Positions 212 through 24,217 of a DNA stretch of 64,000 nucleotides are shown piece after piece. A program made the translations under genes and the position numbers. Below the pieces are notes generated by a model, which saw nothing but the letters and a program-made list of their open reading frames with translations, was not told the DNA's origin and searched no databases. Numbering within the stretch: position 1 is the first letter of the stretch; each line of letters starts with the position of its first letter. The DNA is from Dyella lipolytica (GTDB taxonomy: Bacteria > Pseudomonadota > Gammaproteobacteria > Xanthomonadales > Rhodanobacteraceae): positions 306,295 to 370,294 of the forward strand of contig NZ_BSNQ01000009.1 of assembly GCF_030160075.1 (NCBI RefSeq). The letters are read 5' to 3'.

Positions 212-579
212 ACGTATCCTCTTCTTTCGTCTGCCGCCGCGCAGATACTGCGGGCAAGGTATTCAGGTCGATCCTGCGCCAACGGTCCTGTGATTCGGTC
301 TTCACGCAGACAGTTGGGCGTCCGCAAACCATCCGACCCGGAGGGATGGGCGTATCACGGCGGTCCTTTATCTGTATGGGCACATCATGACATCATGATG
401 TCTCTATGTCAAACGTATCCATGCCAGGCGGTGCTCTCGGGTCTTAGACGAGTTGAGAGCAAAACCATGTCCGCTTTCGACCCCTGGCAGACATCTCATA
501 GCCTGGCTCTAACCGCCTTTGCCCGTCCGTATATTTAGGTAGTTAGGCATCACTCGACACCCCAGGAGCCTCCTGTGCC
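212..579. other. Intergenic region with first repeat copy
   Basis: No convincing gene is seen. The open frame at 83-538 overlaps the DUF417 gene and has no family features. The stretch holds a tandem CATCATGA CATCATGA followed by TG near 388-405, possibly a regulator site for the leftward gene, the degenerate first copy of the 24-base palindrome at 469-492, and GTTAGGC at 542-548, the only place near a cassette start that fits an integron core-site consensus exactly together with a nearby CTCTAAC. Confidence 0.4.
469..492. repeat. 24-base palindromic repeat, copy 1 (degenerate)
   Basis: Left arm GTCCGCTTT and loop CGACCC are intact; the right arm is CTGGCAGAC instead of AAAGCGGAC. It precedes the YciI-like gene at 580. 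Confidence 0.7.
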
Positions 580-888
580 ATGAAATACTTCTTCTGCAAA
601 TTGATTCCTCCCCGCGCCACCTTCGCTCAAGACATGACTCAGGCGGAGCGGGCCCTCATGGGTCAGCACGTCGCGTACTGGCAAGACCTGATGCACAAGC
701 AAAAGGCTCTCGCGTTCGGACCTGTGGCAGATCCTCAAGGCGGCTACGGCATTGGGATCATTGCCGCGAGCAGTGACGCTGAGATGGAGATACTTCGCGA
801 GAACGATCCAACCATCAAGGCGAATGAGGGCTTTCGGTTCGAAGCTCTGCCGATGCCGCGGTTGATGAGCCCCTTAGTCACCCAGTGA
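580..888 (+). CDS. YciI family protein
   Basis: A 102-residue protein covering the whole length of the YCII-related fold. It begins MKYFFCKLIPPR, has HVAYWQDLM near residue 30, the conserved AFGPVADPQGGYGIGII stretch at about 44-60, and ENDPTIKANEGFRFE near 74-88, all typical of YciI proteins that act as small stand-alone enzymes or ligand-binding proteins of mostly unknown substrate. An AGGAG site at 564-568 supports the ATG at 580. It is the first of eleven same-strand genes each preceded by one copy of the 24-base palindrome. Family call is firm; function is not known. Confidence 0.9.
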   Translation: MKYFFCKLIPPRATFAQDMTQAERALMGQHVAYWQDLMHKQKALAFGPVADPQGGYGIGIIAASSDAEMEILRENDPTIKANEGFRFEALPMPRLMSPLVTQ

Positions 889-970
889 CGCTGGCGCCGC
901 CGAACAATTTGCTGCAGTTGACCGTCATCCCACTACGCGGGCTGCCGGCAGCTGAGCTTAAGCGTTGAAC

Positions 971-994
971 GTCTGTTTTCGACCCGAAGCGGAC
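971..994. repeat. 24-base palindromic repeat, copy 2
   Basis: Arms GTCTGTTTT and GAAGCGGAC around loop CGACCC. The changes keep pairing through G-U wobbles. It is preceded by GTTGAAC. Confidence 0.85.
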
Positions 995-1067
995 ACTGCG
1001 GAGCTAAACGTTTTTCGGATCGTACGCATCACAGTGCCTCTTGCTGTCAGGCGACAAGGAATTCTGC

Positions 1068-2132
1068 ATGACACGTTTTCGTTCCGTACTTACGGTCGTA
1101 TCGATTCTCAGCTCGTTAATAGCCACCACCGCACCCGCCGCTCCACCGGAATCGCTTCCGGCATCGGCATACACGCATCCGCAAGAACTCGTCGTCGTGG
1201 CACCCGGCCGGCGGCTCAACGTTTATTGCCTCGGTGAAGGCTCGCCAACGGTGCTTTTCGATGCTGGGCTGGGTGACGGCACAATGGGTTGGCGCGCGGT
1301 GCAAGGTGAGATTGCCAAGACGACGCGCGCATGCACTTATGATCGGGCCAACTATTTTTTTAGCGACACCGTCGATCGGCGCGCGACAGCGCAAGCGGCC
1401 GTCGAGGATATGTTGGCGCTAATCGATCACGCCAAGCTGGGTGATCGCGTGATCCTAGTTGGACATTCTCGCGGTGGATTAAATGTCCGTCTGTTCACCT
1501 ACGAACATGCCAATCGTGTCGCAGGGTTGGTATTGGTTGACCCCACCGTCACAGAGAAGCTGTCTTCGGCAGCGACCGCATACTATGTTCACAAATACGA
1601 AAACTATCTCGCGCGAGGCCAGCAATTGGAAAATTGCTGGCACGCGGCGCAGCAGCACGCATTGCAACCTGAGGGCGCGGACTCCTTGAAGTGCCTGGAC
1701 GACTTCGGCGCCCAGCAAGATCCAAACGAACGGGTGCTGGCGCACACCATCCGAACCATGGAGACGCAACCCGCCTACCAGGCGACCCTTTTCTCGGAAC
1801 GACAAAACTTGTTCTATCCCATCGACAACGACGGGGATTCGATCGACGGGCGGAGTATCGCACTGGCCGAGCACTCGCTTGGCGACCTCCCACTGGTAGT
1901 GATTTCGGCCGATTGGTTCAAGTCGATCACCTTCAAGGGCACGCCAACGGTCGAGCAAAGAGAGTTTTTGTCATGGAATAGTGAGCAAATGCGCCATATC
2001 GCCGACGAATCGACGCGAGGTCAGTTCATCAAAGTGCCGAGCCGACACTACGTCCAAAAAGAACGACCCGACGTGGTGATTGGCGCCATTGAGCATCTTA
2101 TCCACTTGTGCCGTGTGCCGGCGTATCCCTAG
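1068..2132 (+). CDS. Secreted alpha/beta hydrolase
   Basis: A 354-residue protein with a signal peptide (hydrophobic SVLTVVSILSSLIATTAPA, residues 5-23) and an alpha/beta-hydrolase core. The nucleophile elbow is VGHSRGG with Ser at about residue 134, preceded by the oxyanion strand VLFDAGLGDG near 62-71. The late SRHYVQKERPDVV segment near 326 should carry the catalytic His. AAGGA at 1056-1060 sits 7 bases before the ATG at 1068, so this start is preferred over an upstream TTG at 1041. It belongs to the alpha/beta hydrolase superfamily with unknown substrate and probably acts in the periplasm. It is the second gene of the repeat-separated array. Confidence 0.85.
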   Translation: MTRFRSVLTVVSILSSLIATTAPAAPPESLPASAYTHPQELVVVAPGRRLNVYCLGEGSPTVLFDAGLGDGTMGWRAVQGEIAKTTRACTYDRANYFFSDTVDRRATAQAAVEDMLALIDHAKLGDRVILVGHSRGGLNVRLFTYEHANRVAGLVLVDPTVTEKLSSAATAYYVHKYENYLARGQQLENCWHAAQQHALQPEGADSLKCLDDFGAQQDPNERVLAHTIRTMETQPAYQATLFSERQNLFYPIDNDGDSIDGRSIALAEHSLGDLPLVVISADWFKSITFKGTPTVEQREFLSWNSEQMRHIADESTRGQFIKVPSRHYVQKERPDVVIGAIEHLIHLCRVPAYP

Positions 2133-2177
2133 GCTGAGAAATGAGGTGGATTCTCCAGCCAATGGAGCAGGTTTAAT

Positions 2178-2201
2178 GTCCGCTTTCGACCCATAACGAA
2201 C
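2178..2201. repeat. 24-base palindromic repeat, copy 3
   Basis: Left arm GTCCGCTTT and loop CGACCC are intact; right arm ATAACGAAC is degenerate. Preceded by GTTTAAT. Confidence 0.8.
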
Positions 2202-2295
2202 AGGGTGGTCGGGACCCGCTACAAACTCCCCAAAGAATTGTCGATTTCCGATCATCAGCTTCGTCGCCAGTGCATCCCAACCCAATGGAGCTCCC

Positions 2296-2667
2296 ATGAA
2301 ATACCTCGGCCTGGCCTACTTCACCCCCGAAAAATTCGCTGCGATGGCGCCGGACAACGTCAAGGATTTGATAAGCCAATGTCCGGCATTGGACGAGAAG
2401 ATGCGCGCTACCGGCAAGGTTCTGGTTTCCGCGTCGCTTGGCGATCTGGACAGCTGGAAGACGCTTCGCCCACGCAACGGTAAGACGCACATCAGCGATG
2501 GGCCTTACATCGAGTCGAAGGAAGTAGTGGGCGGCCTGTTCATCATTGAGGCGGACAGCCATGACGAGGCGCTACGCATCGCATCCATGCACCCGGCTGC
2601 CACGCTGGGCGAAGCAGGCGGATGGGCCGTTGAGCTTATCCCTATGGATTTTTACCTGGCCCGATGA
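2296..2667 (+). CDS. YciI/DGPF family protein
   Basis: A 123-residue protein starting MKYLGLAYFTPEKF. It carries the family signature DGPYIESKEVVGG at about residues 75-87 and a closing A..HP..... G.VEL-type strand (GGWAVELIPMDF). This is the DGPF/YCII group often found beside ECF sigma factors, but no sigma gene is seen here. GGAG at 2287-2290 supports the ATG. It is the third gene of the array and is only distantly like the YciI protein at 580, so the two are not a recent duplication. Biochemical role unknown. Confidence 0.9.
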   Translation: MKYLGLAYFTPEKFAAMAPDNVKDLISQCPALDEKMRATGKVLVSASLGDLDSWKTLRPRNGKTHISDGPYIESKEVVGGLFIIEADSHDEALRIASMHPAATLGEAGGWAVELIPMDFYLAR

Positions 2668-2694
2668 GGGTTGCTGTGCGCATCAATTGGGAGT

Positions 2695-2718
2695 GTCTGC
2701 TCTCGACCCGAAGCGGAC
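2695..2718. repeat. 24-base palindromic repeat, copy 4
   Basis: Arms GTCTGCTCT and GAAGCGGAC around loop CGACCC, one mismatch and two G-U pairs. GTTGCT at 2670 and AGCAAC at 2739 flank it as a wider weak inverted repeat. Confidence 0.8.
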
Positions 2719-2757
2719 CTTTTCCGCATTGGCTTTGAAGCAACAAGAAGAGGGAAA

Positions 2758-3186
2758 ATGATCGATCACGTCTACATCTCCGTCACCAACATCGACAAGT
2801 CGCTGGCGTTCTACTCTGAAGCCCTGAAGCCGCTCGGCTGGCGCCTGTTCGGCAACTACGACGCCGCTTCAGGTCCCGAGAGCGTCCCGGATCTTTACGG
2901 CATTGCTGATGATGCGTATCTCAGCGGGAAGGCGGTCGGATCAAGCGTCTGGCTACGGCAACGCAAGCCCGGCGAGACCGGGCTCTACATCGGCATCGTC
3001 TGCGATACCAATGAATTGGTCGACGCTGCCTACGCGGCTGCCATCAAAGCCGGTGGCACCGACGAAGGTAAACCAGCAGATCGCACCTACTTCGCCCGAG
3101 GCTACTACGCAGCTAACGTCGCCGACTTCGATGGAAACCGTATTGAGTTCGTGCACAAAGCGTGGAACCCGAAGCGGCACCCGTAG
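2758..3186 (+). CDS. VOC (glyoxalase-like) family protein
   Basis: A 142-residue protein that starts MIDHVYISVTNIDKSLAFY, the opening beta-alpha unit of vicinal-oxygen-chelate proteins, and ends with FDGNRIEFVHKAW, the usual last strand carrying a metal or substrate Glu. His4 and the Glu near residue 132 are the expected metal-ligand positions. Length fits a single VOC monomer made of two beta-alpha-beta-beta-beta modules. AGAGGGAAA directly precedes the ATG, and the start within the repeat upstream (near 2671) is rejected. Fourth gene of the array. Members include glyoxalases, dioxygenases and antibiotic-binding proteins, so the substrate is open. Confidence 0.9.
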   Translation: MIDHVYISVTNIDKSLAFYSEALKPLGWRLFGNYDAASGPESVPDLYGIADDAYLSGKAVGSSVWLRQRKPGETGLYIGIVCDTNELVDAAYAAAIKAGGTDEGKPADRTYFARGYYAANVADFDGNRIEFVHKAWNPKRHP

Positions 3187-3286
3187 CCATCGAACAAGAA
3201 GGGATCACCTTTATCTCTTCTGTATGCTGGAACCGTATGGTCGCTAATAGTCCAAGATAGGAGCGCCGCGGTGCCCCATTCGCCAT

Positions 3287-3310
3287 GTCCGCTTCCGACC
3301 CGAAACGGAC
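3287..3310. repeat. 24-base palindromic repeat, copy 5
   Basis: Arms GTCCGCTTC and GAAACGGAC around loop CGACCC. The loop-closing pair has changed from T-A to C-G on both sides, a compensatory change that argues the hairpin itself matters. Confidence 0.85.
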
Positions 3311-3366
3311 GCTCGTAAGACAAGTCTTGGATCGCAATCGGCACTAGCAGCGAAAGGGCGTGGCAC

Positions 3367-3954
3367 ATGGACACCGCTATCTCAAAACCAACCATCAGCG
3401 CACGCTGGGCCCCGGTTTTAGTTCTGCTTTTGATCGTTGTCTTAATGGGCAACGGGGCGCAAGACACCCATCTATATGACAACGTCACCTGGTACGCGGT
3501 AACTCCGCTCAGCGGCATTCTAGGGGCCTTGGTGGCGTGGCTTTGGATGCGTGACTTCCGGGCGAAAGATTACAAATACAGGGACCAGTGTGGGGGTAAC
3601 TCTCAGGATGAGCCTTCCACAGCTGCCCTTAAGGCATTGTTTATTGGCTGCGTCATGGCCGCCTTCTTTTGGGGGATCATTCAAAGTCTGCTATTACTTG
3701 CAGTCCGAATCATGCCGGCAACGCCAGTTACATTCGCGACAACCGTGACTGGTTTGGAAAATCGCAGAGGATGTCATTCCATCGTCGTTGTTTACAGGGA
3801 CACCTTTACCTCTGGTGAGGCAAGGCAGTGTGTCGCAAATGCGCCAGGGCAAAGACGGATTGGCGAACCGGTAACTGTGGATGAATTCGCCGGGCTTTTG
3901 GGTACAAGGTTCGACCGAATCACCTACAAGGATGTGCCCTATGGCGGCAGGTAA
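3367..3954 (+). CDS. Membrane protein of unknown function
   Basis: A 195-residue protein with three likely membrane segments at about 14-28 (PVLVLLLIVVLMG), 42-61 and 87-114 (ALFIGCVMAAFFWGIIQS), then a soluble C-terminal part of about 80 residues with two cysteines (RRGCHS and RQCVAN) that could pair outside the membrane. AAAGGG about ten bases ahead supports the ATG at 3367. I do not recognise the family. It is the fifth gene of the repeat-separated array, with no same-strand partner that hints at a role. Confidence 0.7.
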   Translation: MDTAISKPTISARWAPVLVLLLIVVLMGNGAQDTHLYDNVTWYAVTPLSGILGALVAWLWMRDFRAKDYKYRDQCGGNSQDEPSTAALKALFIGCVMAAFFWGIIQSLLLLAVRIMPATPVTFATTVTGLENRRGCHSIVVVYRDTFTSGEARQCVANAPGQRRIGEPVTVDEFAGLLGTRFDRITYKDVPYGGR

Positions 3955-3982
3955 CATGTACGCCTTGGCTTAGGAATTAATT

Positions 3983-4006
3983 GTCCGCTTTCGACCCAAA
4001 GCGGAC
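3983..4006. repeat. 24-base palindromic repeat, copy 6 (perfect)
   Basis: Exact stem GTCCGCTTT / AAAGCGGAC with loop CGACCC, starting 29 bases after the stop of the upstream gene and directly followed by the GGTCAGAGT hairpin at 4012. Confidence 0.95.
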
Positions 4007-4011
4007 AGTTG

Positions 4012-4064
4012 AAAAAAGGTCAGAGTGCCTCTTCTGTGAGTTAAAAGTGACTCTGACCTTTTTT
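4012..4064. terminator. Long hairpin of GGTCAGAGT type, possible terminator
   Basis: Perfect 15-base arms, AAAAAAGGTCAGAGT at 4012-4026 and ACTCTGACCTTTTTT at 4050-4064, with a 23-base loop. The T run at the end fits a rho-independent terminator working in either direction. The same GGTCAGAGTC core recurs at 10238, 20234 and elsewhere. Confidence 0.7.
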
Positions 4065-4107
4065 CTCGCTACCCCATTTCTTAAAGAAGTCCAACCAAGG
4101 AGTAAAC

Positions 4108-4416
4108 ATGAAGTCGCATATGTCTATCGTTGCCCTAGCATTGATCACGTTGCCATTGTTTGCCCACGCCTCTTGCGATGCCGTGAAATCCGATATCGAC
4201 GCAAAGATCAAAGCGCACGGCGTTAATAGTTATAGTTTGGAAGTGGTGTCTGCCGATCAGGCAGATAAGAACGAAGGCAAAGTGGTCGGGCGATGCGAGG
4301 GCAACAAAGTCATTGTGTATTCCCGTGGGCAATCCAAGGTAAGCGACGAGAACTCAAACAGTGTGCTGCCTCTGCAACCTCCCGCACCGACTCGATCAGG
4401 CCAAACCGGCGGGTGA
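4108..4416 (+). CDS. DUF1161 family periplasmic protein
   Basis: A 102-residue protein with a signal peptide (cleavage likely after AHA, residue about 21) followed by SCDAVKSDIDAKIKAHGVNS, which matches the start of DUF1161 domains, and later GKVVGRCEGNKVIVYSRG, the family's closing motif; the two Cys could form a disulfide. AAGGAG at 4097-4102 stands 5 bases before the ATG. The last 25 residues are a Pro/Ser-rich tail not part of the domain. Function of DUF1161 is unknown. Sixth gene of the array. Confidence 0.88.
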   Translation: MKSHMSIVALALITLPLFAHASCDAVKSDIDAKIKAHGVNSYSLEVVSADQADKNEGKVVGRCEGNKVIVYSRGQSKVSDENSNSVLPLQPPAPTRSGQTGG

Positions 4417-4485
4417 TCGTAGGTACTCTGCGAAATTAGCCAGGGTGAGACGAGGCTTCAAATGCATGGCCTGAAGCAAGCAGAT

Positions 4486-4509
4486 GTCCGCTTTCGACCC
4501 AAAGCGGAC
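4486..4509. repeat. 24-base palindromic repeat, copy 7 (perfect)
   Basis: Exact stem and loop. The ATG at 4484 that overlaps it would encode MSAFDPKRT at the front of the next gene, but the real ribosome site lies after the repeat. Confidence 0.95.
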
Positions 4510-4531
4510 ATACTTCTGGAGGGGGAGGCAC

Positions 4532-5206
4532 ATGACGGCGGTTGCAACATCGCGGGTGGTCGCAGAGATATATCGTGGCATCGATTTCCCATCCGATTGG
4601 ATAAGCAAGCCCGAAACAATCGGTGTTGGCATGACCCGGGACGTGCTCCTTTCAGTCGTGGTGCTCTTCGATGAAAAGCTCGAGCTTCTCGCTGCCTGTT
4701 GGCGGGTGGAAAATGGCGATGAAAAGTTTGTCCGAAGATGCGTGGGAGAGGCCGGACAGAAAGACCTCCTCGCGGATTTCGACAGGGTGTTGAGCGAGGA
4801 AAGTCTTCGTGTCGGTGCCCCCGACCTATTCGCCACTCTGGTGTGGGCTCCCACGGACCTGCGACCGGACCAAGGCAAGAAGATCAATAAGCTGGTAGTC
4901 CAGTCTGGCAGATCTGCATCGATAACCGGTTGGAACATGGCGCCGCCGCTTATCGTGGCCAATGCAGGCAATCTTCTCCTGATGACACGGCGCGCGGACA
5001 ATGGGCTTGATCTTCCCGTTCCAGAATCGGCTGGGGAAATGATCGCCTCCCTGAGCGAAGAGGTTCCGCAGCTCATGATTGTGTTGCCTGGAAACTATGC
5101 GCTTGAGCCAGAAAGGTGGTCGATCCAGAAGAAGATGGCGGTGTTCTTTGGCAGTCTGCTATTGCTCGGCATTGCCCTGAGCGCTTTGGCCCTGAGATTT
5201 GAATGA
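4532..5206 (+). CDS. Hypothetical protein with C-terminal membrane anchor
   Basis: A 224-residue protein of unknown family. The start is placed at 4532 because GGAGGGGGAGG lies 4 bases before it; the longer frame from 4484 only adds the translated palindrome. Most of the protein is soluble and ends in a single hydrophobic segment (MAVFFGSLLLLGIALSALAL) at about residues 203-222 with two charged residues after it, as in a tail-anchored or type II membrane protein. No catalytic motif is seen. Seventh gene of the array. Confidence 0.65.
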   Translation: MTAVATSRVVAEIYRGIDFPSDWISKPETIGVGMTRDVLLSVVVLFDEKLELLAACWRVENGDEKFVRRCVGEAGQKDLLADFDRVLSEESLRVGAPDLFATLVWAPTDLRPDQGKKINKLVVQSGRSASITGWNMAPPLIVANAGNLLLMTRRADNGLDLPVPESAGEMIASLSEEVPQLMIVLPGNYALEPERWSIQKKMAVFFGSLLLLGIALSALALRFE

Positions 5207-5247
5207 GAGGCGGCGTTACATTGGGCGAGGTCAAGCGTGCGGTGAAC

Positions 5248-5271
5248 ATCCGGTTTCGACCCAAAGCGGCC
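5248..5271. repeat. 24-base palindromic repeat, copy 8
   Basis: Arms ATCCGGTTT and AAAGCGGCC around the intact loop CGACCC; outer pairs are partly lost. Confidence 0.8.
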
Positions 5272-5308
5272 CATGCGGTGATAGACGTCTTGTCAATACG
5301 GAGAGCCT

Positions 5309-5686
5309 GTGAGTATTTCGATTTACTACAGCGCAGCGAGAGGTCATCCGCTGACAAAGGCGGAAAGCAGCGCTATTGCAGCGCTTGTTGACCAATACGC
5401 CATCAACAAGCAGACCGCAAAACGAAGCTGGTTTAGAAGGCCGCCCAACTGGGAGGCTTTTGGCATTTACGATCGCGCGAACCCAGGTCAACCGAACGCG
5501 ATCTTTGAGGGTTCCACGAGGCTTCCTGACAATAGTCAGGAAGCTATGTGGATCGGGTTGCAGCATTGGTGTCGGTTGCTGTCGGAGATCAGGAGGTCAG
5601 TGGCAGGTGCATCTTGGTCCGTACACGTCGACGATCACGAGATTCCTTGGAATTCGGCAACGTCTTCCTACGATCCAGCCAAGTAA
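5309..5686 (+). CDS. Hypothetical protein
   Basis: A 125-residue soluble protein that begins GTG AGT ATT TCG (MSISIYYSAARGHPL) with GGAG a few bases upstream. It contains a basic-aromatic stretch RSWFRRPPNWEAFGIYD at about 44-60 and a Trp-rich region (MWIGLQHWCRLL) near 80-91. The overall look is that of a small alpha/beta protein, and I cannot place it in a family. Eighth gene of the repeat-separated array; the neighbours give no functional hint. Confidence 0.6.
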   Translation: MSISIYYSAARGHPLTKAESSAIAALVDQYAINKQTAKRSWFRRPPNWEAFGIYDRANPGQPNAIFEGSTRLPDNSQEAMWIGLQHWCRLLSEIRRSVAGASWSVHVDDHEIPWNSATSSYDPAK

Positions 5687-5750
5687 ACCCGCTGTGATTG
5701 AGCGGCCAATCCTTGGAGAGCGTTTCTTCCATGGAAGCCGTAGGATTAAC

Positions 5751-5774
5751 GTCCGCTTTCGACCCATAGCGGAC
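5751..5774. repeat. 24-base palindromic repeat, copy 9
   Basis: Left arm and loop perfect, right arm ATAGCGGAC with one change. Preceded by GGATTAAC. Confidence 0.9.
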
Positions 5775-5843
5775 ATAATTTTCGCGGCTCGACTTGAAGC
5801 TGAGTTAAGCAAAAGCGGACAACTACATTTACAGGGAGAGGGC

Positions 5844-6647
5844 ATGTCCACTGCGAAGCGTTGGATACTGGTAGCGACACTGGTGCTAGTGGTCGCCGGG
5901 TGTTCGAAGAAGCAAGAAGTAGGGCCGTTGCCTGTTGCGGGTGAAACAGGCAAAGCGGGAGCTAAGCTGGCCTATGAGCATCATCTGCGTATTGAATTGC
6001 AGCGGGAACAAATTGCGCCACGTATGGCCGCCGTACGCGAAGCCTGTGAGTCGGCACGATTCGGTGCTTGCAACGTATTGCGCCTCGATCAGAGCGAAGA
6101 AAGCGGATCTCTAACGGTACGTATAGTCCCCTCAGGCGTCGAACCAATTAGCGCTCTGGCTAGTCAGAGTGGAAAGCTGGCTTGGCGACAGACGCAGGCG
6201 GAAGATCTGGCCGACGCGGTGAACGACAATCAACAGCAACTAAAAGAACTCGAAATCTATTCGACTCAGATAGAGCAACTTGCCGAGCGCAAGGATCTCT
6301 CGGCGAGTGACCTCATCGCGTTGAGCCATGAACGCGCGCAAATACAGATCGAGCGCGAGAATTTGCAAAATACCGCCGCGCAGCAGCAAAGGCGCATCGA
6401 CACGAACCTTCTGCAGATGGATTTCACCGACGAGGCACACGGACGTCATCTTGGTATTACTTTCGGCGAATGGACTGATCAGCTGTATGACGGCATTCGC
6501 GATACCCTCTCGATGCTTGCATATGGCATTCCGTTCTTGTCGCTGGCTTTCCCACTGGCACTGTGCTGGCGATGGCTCTGGCGCCGGGTGACGCGAAAAT
6601 CACGCGAACGTCGCGCTCGTTTAGAAAATAAGGACGAAAGTACTTAA
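5844..6647 (+). CDS. DUF4349-type lipoprotein
   Basis: A 267-residue protein whose signal ends in a lipobox (VLVVAGC, Cys at residue 20), so it should be lipid-anchored. A segment near residues 85-105 (GSLTVRIVPSGVEPI) and a long coiled coil at about 120-190 (repeated E, Q, K and A heptads) are followed by a C-terminal membrane segment near 225-245 (LSLAFPLALCWRWLW) and a basic tail, the architecture of DUF4349 proteins. AGGGAGAGGGC supports the ATG at 5844. Ninth gene of the array. Function of the family is unknown. Confidence 0.8.
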   Translation: MSTAKRWILVATLVLVVAGCSKKQEVGPLPVAGETGKAGAKLAYEHHLRIELQREQIAPRMAAVREACESARFGACNVLRLDQSEESGSLTVRIVPSGVEPISALASQSGKLAWRQTQAEDLADAVNDNQQQLKELEIYSTQIEQLAERKDLSASDLIALSHERAQIQIERENLQNTAAQQQRRIDTNLLQMDFTDEAHGRHLGITFGEWTDQLYDGIRDTLSMLAYGIPFLSLAFPLALCWRWLWRRVTRKSRERRARLENKDEST

Positions 6648-6699
6648 TACGGTTGGTCATGTTTTAGGACATGGTGGATCAATTTGGTGCTAGTGGAGT

Positions 6700-6723
6700 G
6701 TCCGCTTTCGACCCAAAGCGGAC
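6700..6723. repeat. 24-base palindromic repeat, copy 10 (perfect)
   Basis: Exact stem and loop, 26 bases before the start of the next gene. Confidence 0.95.
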
Positions 6724-6749
6724 CTTACTCGTGAAAACTCGAGGAAGTG

Positions 6750-7115
6750 ATGAAAGTCGGTTACGCGAACACCATCGTCCTCCTACACCTCAGACAAGCG
6801 TTAGAGAACCTCTTGATGGGGAAAGTCTGCTTAACGGAGGGCGTTAGGGAGGTTGTGCAGTGGTGTTGGTCCAATCATGGTTTGGATGACGAGTTGTTTC
6901 GCCCGTTTATCGGAGTCGACTCTGAAACAGATCGGTTTCCTGTTGGCCAGGTGCGCCAGCTGTGGAGCACTGAGGGACTTGCGGCGGTAGATGCGGGGAG
7001 AGTCGCAGCTGAGGAGCACTACAGGGCCTGGATCATGGATAGTGTAAATAGTTTGCTGGGTGCTGTGGCCGCGGAATTAGCGACATCCGCGTTCACCGAT
7101 CCGGCTCCCAAATGA
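6750..7115 (+). CDS. Hypothetical protein
   Basis: A 121-residue soluble, largely helical protein. GAGGAA at 6741-6746 serves the ATG at 6750; an in-frame GTG at 6747 is possible but closer to the ribosome site than usual. It contains LLHLRQALENLLMG near residues 10-23, VREVVQWCWSNHGLDDELF near 31-50 and a second helix pair near 75-105. I do not recognise the family. Tenth gene of the array. The next repeat begins one base after its TGA, the tightest gene-to-repeat junction in the array. Confidence 0.65.
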   Translation: MKVGYANTIVLLHLRQALENLLMGKVCLTEGVREVVQWCWSNHGLDDELFRPFIGVDSETDRFPVGQVRQLWSTEGLAAVDAGRVAAEEHYRAWIMDSVNSLLGAVAAELATSAFTDPAPK

Positions 7116-7116
7116 C

Positions 7117-7140
7117 GTCCGCTTTCGACCCAAAGCGGAC
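7117..7140. repeat. 24-base palindromic repeat, copy 11 (perfect)
   Basis: Exact stem and loop, extended by one more pair (C before, G after). It is the last copy I can find in the window. Confidence 0.95.
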
Positions 7141-7170
7141 GCTTCGAAACGGAGCAATACAACCAGGCCG

Positions 7171-7311
7171 ATGAACCACATCGCCTCGGTCATGACGATG
7201 CTCGCATTGGCGGGATGCCCTAATGCTTACTATCCAACGAATCTCGGCGCCGCGACAATGCGCCGAACGCTAACTCGACCGCGCCGGAGGAAAATAACGA
7301 ATGACGAGTGA
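7171..7311 (+). CDS. Possible small lipoprotein or gene remnant
   Basis: A 46-codon frame starting MNHIASVMTM followed by LALAGC, a good lipobox with Cys at residue 16, then YYPTNLGAATM and a basic end. GGAG lies 15 bases upstream, rather far. The frame overlaps the first 11 bases of the acetyltransferase gene. It may be the broken front of a lipoprotein gene left behind when the array was assembled. Low certainty. Confidence 0.3.
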   Translation: MNHIASVMTMLALAGCPNAYYPTNLGAATMRRTLTRPRRRKITNDE

Positions 7312-7858
7312 TGATCGCACCAAGATCATTCCCAGGAGAACACCGGAATCAGCGGCCATGTCGGCAAATGTCAGACGGGCGATGGCGATCACCGCCGCTC
7401 TCAACCGTTTGACGTACGACGATGCAGATGAAGTCCGGGCCTTGTTCAGCGATCTCATCGGCAAGAAGGTGGACGACAGCTTCTTATTGATACCGCCCTT
7501 CTACACCGCAAGCGGCGTCGATATCAGTGTCGGGCGCAATGTCTTCGTCAATCAGAATTGCACGTTCTATGACCTTGGCGGGCTCGACATTGCCGACGAT
7601 GTGATGATCGGGCCGAACGTGAGCATCATCACGACGGGTCATCCCATTGAACCTTCTCAGCGGCGCGCCTCCGTCATCGCGAAGCCCATCGCGATTGAGA
7701 GAAACGTCTGGATCGCAGCCAGCGCGACCATCATCGGTGGCGTAACCGTTGGAGAGAACTCGGTCGTCGCGGCGGGTTCGGTCGTCACCAAGGACGTTCC
7801 ACGGAATACCCTTGTCGGGGGAAATCCGGCGCGGGTCATTCGTTCGATTGCCGAATGA
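7301..7858 (+). CDS. Sugar O-acetyltransferase (maltose/NodL type)
   Basis: A 185-residue left-handed beta-helix acyltransferase. An N-terminal helical segment is followed by imperfect hexapeptide repeats from about residue 73 (VDISVGRNVFVNQNCTFYD) through VTVGENSVVAAGSVVTKDV near 147-165, closing with the family's VGGNPARVIR. His in TGHPIE near residue 112 is the expected catalytic base; the acyl donor would be acetyl-CoA. GGAGGAAA supports the ATG. Length fits the maltose/galactoside acetyltransferase group. Last gene of the repeat-separated array; the next gene is on the other strand. Confidence 0.92.
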   Translation: MTSDDRTKIIPRRTPESAAMSANVRRAMAITAALNRLTYDDADEVRALFSDLIGKKVDDSFLLIPPFYTASGVDISVGRNVFVNQNCTFYDLGGLDIADDVMIGPNVSIITTGHPIEPSQRRASVIAKPIAIERNVWIAASATIIGGVTVGENSVVAAGSVVTKDVPRNTLVGGNPARVIRSIAE

Positions 7859-24143: not shown

Positions 24144-24155
24144 TGGCTGGGAGAC
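24094..24155. repeat. 29-base-arm palindrome containing a terminator and mirrored tRNA ends
   Basis: The arms 24094-24122 and 24127-24155 are perfect reverse complements around TTCC. The inner half (GCAAAAAGCCCGCC and its partner) is a rho-independent terminator, and the outer half is the tRNA acceptor end GTCTCCCAGCCA in both orientations. It would end tRNA-Gln transcription. Confidence 0.85.
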
Positions 24156-24217
24156 TAGGATTCGAACCTAGATAAACGGAGTCAGAGTCCGTTGTCCTAC
24201 CGTTAGACGATCTCCCA
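24144..24217 (-). tRNA. glnV: tRNA-Gln (anticodon CTG)
   Basis: The minus strand folds as a full cloverleaf of 74 bases: acceptor TGGGAGA with TCTCCCA, D arm TCTAACGGTAGGA, anticodon stem ACGGA / TCCGT around loop CTCTGAC giving anticodon CTG for the CAG codon, T arm CTAGG TTCGAAT CCTAG, and an encoded CCA end. It lies just downstream of rpsI on the same strand and marks the border between accessory DNA on the left and conserved DNA on the right. Confidence 0.95.

Follow-up and report, generated by a model that had tools for sequence, protein, structure and literature searches.

The present study examined a 64,000-nucleotide stretch of the Dyella lipolytica genome (contig NZ_BSNQ01000009.1, positions 306,295 to 370,294 of the forward strand; hereafter, the window). 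Near its left end, small genes alternate with copies of the 24-bp palindrome GTCCGCTTTCGACCCAAAGCGGAC. On balance, we favor the view that this region is an array of individually mobile cassettes, and that a trans-acting site-specific recombinase, probably a tyrosine recombinase, carries out their exchange within the palindrome. At the level of sequence comparisons between genomes, support was obtained for the array, its directionality, unit borders at the palindrome, the loss of neighbor order, and nesting with the attI and attC sites of integrons.

Structure of the palindrome arrays

A scan of the window revealed eleven copies of the palindrome on the + strand, starting at 469 to 7117, with 0 to 4 mismatches, and no twelfth copy within 6 mismatches in the 64 kb. 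Four copies were perfect (3983, 4486, 6700, and 7117), and the center CGACCC was identical in all eleven. The palindromes alternate one-to-one with eleven + strand genes, with a gene following each site. The original prediction, which was based on the letters of the window and its open reading frames (ORFs), had reported these eleven positions, the four perfect copies, the invariant loop, the alternation with genes, and the lack of copies in the remaining 56 kb, and each of these observations was reproduced.

In the complete 4.05-Mb genome of D. lipolytica (G000; other G and L numbers denote the genomes and loci compared), GTCCGCTTTCGACCCAAAGCGGAC was found with up to 3 mismatches at 40 distinct places, 10 of which were in the window. 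These places correspond to 41 rows, with one place being counted on both strands, and the copy at 469, with 4 mismatches, lies outside this count. Since the reversed pattern gave 0 matches, the palindrome array is not a product of chance. This search with the consensus, which had been proposed with the original prediction, thereby added 30 places outside the window. They were mostly clustered (C3:802-808k, 1088-1091k, 1168-1169k, and 1465-1494k; C9:288-301k, 421-426k, and 944-948k), and most clusters used a single strand, with C9:288-301k and C9:944-948k being mixed.

We surveyed 43 array regions from G000, G005, G007, G010, G011, G012, G014, G015, and G017, accepting sites with up to 6 mismatches. 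Among the 269 sites, neighbors less than 4 kb apart were on the same strand in 208 cases and on opposite strands in 4. The 208 units had a median length of 620 bp, and their longest ORF was co-oriented in 188, opposite in 16, and absent in 4. The median gap between the palindrome and this ORF was 45.5 bases before and 31.5 bases after it. The original prediction had named a scatter of palindromes with no relation to gene order as a result that would speak against a cassette array; the arrays were instead directional. To two decimals, the G+C content of the array in 40 regions was lower than that of the flanks in 30, equal in 4, and higher in 6. Regarding the replication strand, the GC skew of the flanks agreed with the array strand in 15 regions and disagreed in 5.

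By lineage, same-strand and opposite-strand neighbors numbered 29 and 0 in the Rhodanobacter group, 29 and 0 in Caulobacter and Phenylobacterium, 21 and 1 in sphingomonads, 34 and 25 in Lysobacter, and 5 and 9 in others. The strand split in Lysobacter arose because a second, inverted palindrome with another center adjoins most sites. In the Lysobacter loci L051, L090, L096, L103, L122, and L149, most sites were composites of approximately 85 bp, consisting of the inverted second palindrome (center CGGCCA), a G+C-rich spacer, and the main palindrome, in this order. In sphingomonads, palindromes repeated in tandem every 35 bases, without intervening genes, are also present at L095:6778-6909 and L142:776-835. 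A C4 antisense RNA with its a1/b1 targets (Rfam) lies between cassettes at L034:15851-16029, in the largest array of the D. lipolytica genome. No Rfam family was detected at the palindromes in the 14 sources searched.

Probable exchange of single units

In free alignments of whole loci, homology began and ended within palindromes. Some homology elsewhere in the 43 regions was found for 70 of the 208 units (141 matches in total). From these matches, we selected by hand 22 junctions (14 left and 8 right) at which the homology extends to a palindrome in each copy; in two cases, both members of the pair are from one genome (a tandem duplicate and the L186 pair). Identity on the unit side was 234/308 and 139/176 (76-79%), and fell to 86/308 and 53/176 (28-30%) past the palindrome. 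Neighbors were conserved in 0 of 21 comparisons from 18 homologous unit pairs. The same gene order in all relatives had been put forward as a result contradicting the original prediction; single units recurred without their neighbors. The suggestion in that prediction of an unusual cassette-assembly system therefore gains support from directional arrays, homology ending at the palindrome, and the loss of order. Regarding an empty site for the window array, the right-hand neighbor gene was present in 5 relatives, and none of the remaining flanking genes in the 20 kb examined was matched beside it.

The full site is 30 bp long, AATGTCCGCTTT-CGACCC-AAAGCGGACATT, with 12-bp inverted arms and a 6-bp asymmetric center. 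In the profile of the 269 sites, mean conservation was 94% in the center and 89% and 84% in the arms. Tyrosine recombinases need a conserved asymmetric overlap between inverted arms, and the profile has the geometry of their core sites, namely, inverted arms of approximately 9-13 bp and a conserved asymmetric center of 6-8 bp. We infer that the enzyme is of the tyrosine-recombinase type. The commonest center was CGACCC in every lineage examined; the second was CGGCCA in Lysobacter and CCACCC in Caulobacter and sphingomonads.

The bases around the site also locate the border. The three bases to its left follow the upstream unit, being identical in 7 of 7 right junctions and at the random level in left junctions, and the bases to its right follow the downstream unit. 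Across 19 of the 22 junctions taken together, the arm on the side of the unit was more similar than in randomly paired sites (143/171, p 0.009), and the other arm was not (134/171, p 0.51). These tests omit two of the 14 left junctions (a one-base insertion and the tandem duplicate) and one of the 8 right junctions, the border of which is doubtful.

We propose that a unit extends from mid-palindrome to mid-palindrome and comprises a right half-site, one promoter-proximal gene, and a left half-site, and that the trans-acting recombinase exchanges strands in the 6-bp center. Strand exchange at this position would explain why the center is invariant and why the cassettes all have one orientation, since a conserved asymmetric center would hold all units in one direction.

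One unit, in L037, seemed to be flanked by two half-sites in unrelated DNA, which would indicate insertion into plain DNA. This claim was dropped because the half-sites are palindromes split centrally by other small inserts. Such inserts, of 81 and approximately 230 bp, have 28-bp inverted ends (TGCGGATTCAGCCGGTCGATGCAACAC), split palindromes at their exact center, and show an apparent 2-base duplication, AC. They may be miniature inverted-repeat transposable elements that target the site. The positions of the inserts are as follows:
L037:13801-14031, palindrome-splitting small insert
L189:11624-11853, palindrome-splitting small insert
L179:11958-12189, palindrome-splitting small insert
L191:7767-7847, palindrome-splitting small insert

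Relation to integrons

The features of the window array, all on the + strand, are as follows:
469..492, palindrome 1, 4 mismatches
511..549, integron-type attI remnant in unit 1, no integrase alongside (nhmmer E 1.8e-4)
580..888, YciI-related protein, 102 amino acids (PF03795)
899..970, attC-like hairpin, weak alone (12.7 bits); its GTTGAAC end abuts the start of palindrome 2
971..994, palindrome 2, 3 mismatches
1068..2132, alpha/beta hydrolase (Pfam); homologous unit in L037
2178..2201, palindrome 3, 3 mismatches
2296..2667, YciI-related protein, 123 amino acids (Pfam); homologous unit in L041, palindrome to palindrome
2695..2718, palindrome 4, 3 mismatches
2758..3186, VOC/glyoxalase-family protein, 142 amino acids (Pfam); homologous unit in L041 and L177
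3287..3310, palindrome 5, 3 mismatches
3367..3954, ORF, 195 amino acids, no Pfam match
3983..4006, palindrome 6, perfect
4108..4416, DUF1161 protein, 102 amino acids (Pfam)
4486..4509, palindrome 7, perfect
4532..5206, ORF, 224 amino acids, no Pfam match
5248..5271, palindrome 8, 3 mismatches
5309..5686, ORF, 125 amino acids, no Pfam match
5751..5774, palindrome 9, 1 mismatch
5844..6647, DUF4349 protein, 267 amino acids, lipoprotein-like start (Pfam)
6700..6723, palindrome 10, perfect
6750..7115, ORF, 121 amino acids, no Pfam match; distant homologous unit in L188
7117..7140, palindrome 11, perfect
7301..7858, hexapeptide-repeat acetyltransferase, last gene of the array (Pfam)

Pfam thus matched seven of the eleven genes, two of them YciI-related, and four had no match. 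Eight window proteins had no match in PADLOC. The sole Rfam match in the window was a tRNA gene at 24147-24217 on the - strand.

Unit 1 reads as an integrase-free integron wrapped as one unit, with the attI remnant and the attC-like hairpin flanking the YciI gene between two palindromes. A profile built from nine attI copies outside the window gave one significant match in the 64 kb, namely the remnant at 511-549, which sits inside the unit and not at the entry point of the array. The hairpin was weak by score (E 7.4 over the 43 sources and 0.92 over 100 kb); it lies in the exact register, with 17 of 22 bases matching the attC 3' end. As the only attC-like match for the eleven palindromes of the window, it is consistent with the statement in the original prediction that standard attC ends are not consistently present.

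Similar nesting was observed elsewhere. A covariance model, the kind of attC search proposed with the original prediction, was built from 14 local attC sites; it gave strong matches in the integrons of G009, G010, G011, and Rhodanobacter, which served as a positive control, and 16 matches at E up to 10 across the 43 sources. By this model, the end of an attC abuts a palindrome without a gap in L043, L177, L187, and L042; the same holds for L107. An attC 3' end with at least 14 of 22 bases lay at the exact register in 9 of the 269 sites vs. 1 for 44 other registers together. The attI core gave 16 matches with up to 4 substitutions (the L131 row repeats L043) vs. 3 for the reversed control. A palindrome lies upstream of attI on the same strand at 142 bp in L034, 137 bp in L043, 134 bp in L178, 136 bp in L188, and 138 bp in the second copy of L107.

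Within the genus, the integron integrase IntI (TIGR02249 over the cut-off) was found only in G008, G009, G010, and G011. The integrons of G009 and G010 have canonical attC of 55-60 bp. In G011 (L211), beyond a split intI and three attC cassettes, the next cassettes have palindromes at their ends (6884 and 6463). Locus L107 of Rhodanobacter sp. L36 has two rows of attC cassettes headed by an intI that looks intact (373.5 bits); the last attC of each row immediately adjoins a palindrome (5805|5806 and 7628|7630), and the second row has its own attI copy. The same HIT-family gene is present in the palindrome array of G014 (L181:7498-8713) and, in the G011 integron, between an attC and a palindrome (L211:6909-7355).

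The palindrome site is not attC. A related explanation, which we regard as unlikely, is that it is a very reduced attC, without R boxes, that folds into a single-strand hairpin for an integron integrase acting in trans, such that the arrays would be of the kind known as clusters of attC sites lacking integron integrases (CALINs). The order of sites in L211 and L107, where palindromes come after attC cassettes, the motif GCGGAC that the arms share with the L box of all 14 local attC, and the cassette-like units with no integrase nearby are in line with this explanation. However, a hairpin with 9 to 12 bp in its stem and 6 bases in its loop would fit one pair of integrase boxes only, and the center, which would form the loop, is the most conserved part of the site. 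Furthermore, the attC model finds none at 10 of the 11 window sites, and an intact attC adjoins the palindrome instead of giving way to it.

Candidate enzymes

The original prediction had suggested looking for an integrase or a RAYT transposase (repetitive extragenic palindrome [REP]-associated tyrosine transposase) to the left of the window. No integrase ORF was found in the 43 array regions, and RAYT (Y1_Tnp) gave 0 matches in two site-rich genomes, G005 (24 site matches) and G011 (14).

Several other candidates were rejected. For the integrase of L004, a search of 41 genomes gave full-length relatives in G000 alone, together with a single 45% relative in G008; its other matches were weak and mostly XerC/XerD-like. 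An IS110-type transposase was present in 1 of 10 genomes, and a serine resolvase was present in 6 of 10 and absent from site-rich G010 and G015. XerC and XerD occurred in every genome surveyed, and, therefore, their presence cannot discriminate them.

An excerpt of PMC8946536 describes IntI as binding double-stranded attI and the folded bottom strand of attC, and as also recombining attI with attI; according to an excerpt of PMC12444791, CALINs are mobilizable in trans. Recognition of the palindrome arm AAAGCGGAC by an IntI-type enzyme is plausible from its letters because CGGAC or AAGCGGAC from this arm also occurs in local attI and attC boxes. One or two CGGACRT boxes were present in 6 of 7 attI regions, more than in nearly all shuffles. 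IntI-type integrases would thus be the best named candidate for the enzyme.

Other explanations

It is also unlikely, and to a similar degree as the reduced attC, that no dedicated enzyme is involved, and that the palindrome is a conserved transcription or RNA hairpin, the units being rearranged through short repeats by ordinary recombination and transformation. Rare recombination can start at repeats of 24-30 bp, and the palindrome follows soon after stop codons (median 31.5 bases), as a terminator would. However, none of the hairpins of the eleven window copies has a T run on the 3' side, and the borders are exact, with order lost. Half-sites outside full sites are rare (19 and 22), and the exact 24-mer is spread over several classes and phyla, with which recognition by a protein fits better.

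We consider it very improbable that the units are transposon-like, each bounded by 12-bp terminal inverted repeats (AAAGCGGACATT ... AATGTCCGCTTT) and mobilized in circular form by a trans-acting DDE transposase. Every unit has inverted ends, and the two ends of some insertion sequences lie a few bases apart in circle junctions. However, the 6-bp center, which should vary freely in such a junction, is invariant, no solo unit with a target duplication was found in plain surroundings, and what look like half-sites are full sites interrupted by other inserts. Lastly, the idea that a RAYT (Y1) transposase spreads the palindrome as a REP-like dispersed element can be practically dismissed: short palindromes in many intergenic places and the paired inverted copies in Lysobacter, which resemble REP doublets (REPINs), recall this system, whereas no Y1_Tnp match was found in G005 and G011, REP elements do not carry one co-oriented gene per copy, and their transfer of genes unit by unit would be unexpected.

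Evidence against mobile cassettes

Several results weigh against cassettes exchanged by a dedicated recombinase. The longest ORF was co-oriented and opposite, respectively, in 27 and 2 cases in the Rhodanobacter group, 13 and 6 in sphingomonads, 30 and 4 in Lysobacter, 3 and 2 in others, and 12 and 16 in Caulobacter and Phenylobacterium, which speaks against a general rule; since length-based ORF calling is poor at high G+C, the Caulobacter result may carry less weight. The 22 junctions were chosen by hand, and several of the 141 matches end inside a unit or at no recognizable palindrome. The DUF1161 copy in L042 and the right end of the YciI copy in L036 have no recognizable end site, and the inner site has decayed or been lost in several long units. 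Gain or loss of a unit at the strain level was not seen among the genomes compared, which represent one per species.

The enzyme side is affected as well. Family surveys identified no recombinase for the site, and IntI (TIGR02249 over the cut-off) was not found in site-rich G000, G005, G014, G015, and G017. No palindrome was present in the stretches retrieved for the integrons of G008, G009, and G010. Exact AAGCGGAC is present in only 7 of the 14 attC L boxes, and the attI region of L107 is the one of the 7 with no CGGACRT box.

Comparison with known systems

Judged by their sequences, the palindrome arrays would work like arrays of integrons or dif modules, and are members of neither on the features tested. 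Like integron arrays and CALINs, they comprise many compact units, mostly with one co-oriented gene, the genes being small and unrelated; their order is lost, no integrase is nearby, and some units contain pieces of attI and attC. Comparative evidence thus points to co-oriented cassettes of approximately one gene that move singly, as in integrons. In contrast to integrons, the site is a symmetric palindrome of 24-30 bp and not an attC of 55-60 bp, attC at cassette ends is not the rule in the window, the border lies inside the palindrome, and the arrays occupy several loci of IntI-free genomes, with no TIGR02249 match over the cut-off in G000 and no integrase ORF in the 43 regions.

Modules of p-dif (XerC/XerD) in Acinetobacter lie between dif sites of 28 bp with an 11-6-11 layout (PMC12907356, excerpt). 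In the present arrays, too, gene modules are set between short core sites, the inverted arms of which flank a 6-bp center, arranged here as 12-6-12. However, the arms AATGTCCGCTTT and AAAGCGGACATT differ from the dif-type arms in the excerpt of PMC12907356, host dif not having been searched, and p-dif modules have opposite ends (C/D and D/C), whereas neighboring palindromes here were 208 on the same strand vs. 4 on opposite strands. REPs and REPINs share the many intergenic places of a short palindrome, whereas the units here carry genes and are oriented. Minimal mobile elements and DNA uptake sequences involve the exchange of single genes and short repeats near gene ends. The arrays resemble them in both respects, but have an exact border at the palindrome, and single arms are not dispersed.

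We tentatively advance a broader proposal, which we hold with less confidence than the mobile cassettes themselves. The palindrome arrays may be a second natural cassette system, independent of attC and using symmetric double-stranded sites, which also packs integrase-free integron modules, made up of attI, cassettes, and attC, as single units and so moves whole integron arrays. Its home may be the Rhodanobacteraceae and Lysobacter, with further occurrence in sphingomonads, Caulobacter, and others. The collection of single genes into ordered arrays is regarded as unique to integrons among natural systems. If the proposal is correct, standard tools that seek attC would miss much of the cassette gene pool, and pieces of integrons would themselves travel as cassettes. 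If the enzyme is IntI, the rule that folded attC pairs with attI would be incomplete; if not, a recombinase would await discovery. The short site makes the question of the enzyme directly testable. In the literature, the strings TCCGCTTTCGACCC and MSAFDPKRT had no match, and matches to AAAGCGGACAT and to AAGCGGAC combined with "palindrom" seemed unrelated, to judge from their titles and the opening lines of their abstracts. Topic searches gave nothing alike among the matches listed.

Taxonomic distribution

The site was found with up to 2 mismatches in 16 of 41 relatives and the control pattern in 0. In a sample across the phylum, 38 of 397 genomes had at least one match with up to 3 mismatches; the control matched in 6 of 397, and single weak matches in distant genomes therefore carry little meaning. 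The exact 24-mer was matched by 101 GTDB contig stretches, which represent several classes and phyla, including Lysobacter, Dyella, Rhodanobacter, Sphingomonas, Caulobacter, Phenylobacterium, Massilia, Methylophaga, and metagenome-assembled genomes named Nitrospinaceae and Nitrospirota.

A broad family with a free loop was rejected: exact 10-bp arms with a gap of 4 to 30 gave 3 of 299 genomes, all with a near-constant center length. Reports of many rhizobial variants were not borne out by the same pattern. Matches of the 30-mer in plasmids, phages, and E. coli (E up to 10, other centers) were set aside as evidence. Similar palindromes with other centers, e.g., GTCCGCTTTTGACACAAAGCGGAC, which may be unrelated, were observed in Pantoea, Klebsiella plasmids, and E. 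coli (L194-L196), and 518 of 5426 E. coli genomes had a weak match.

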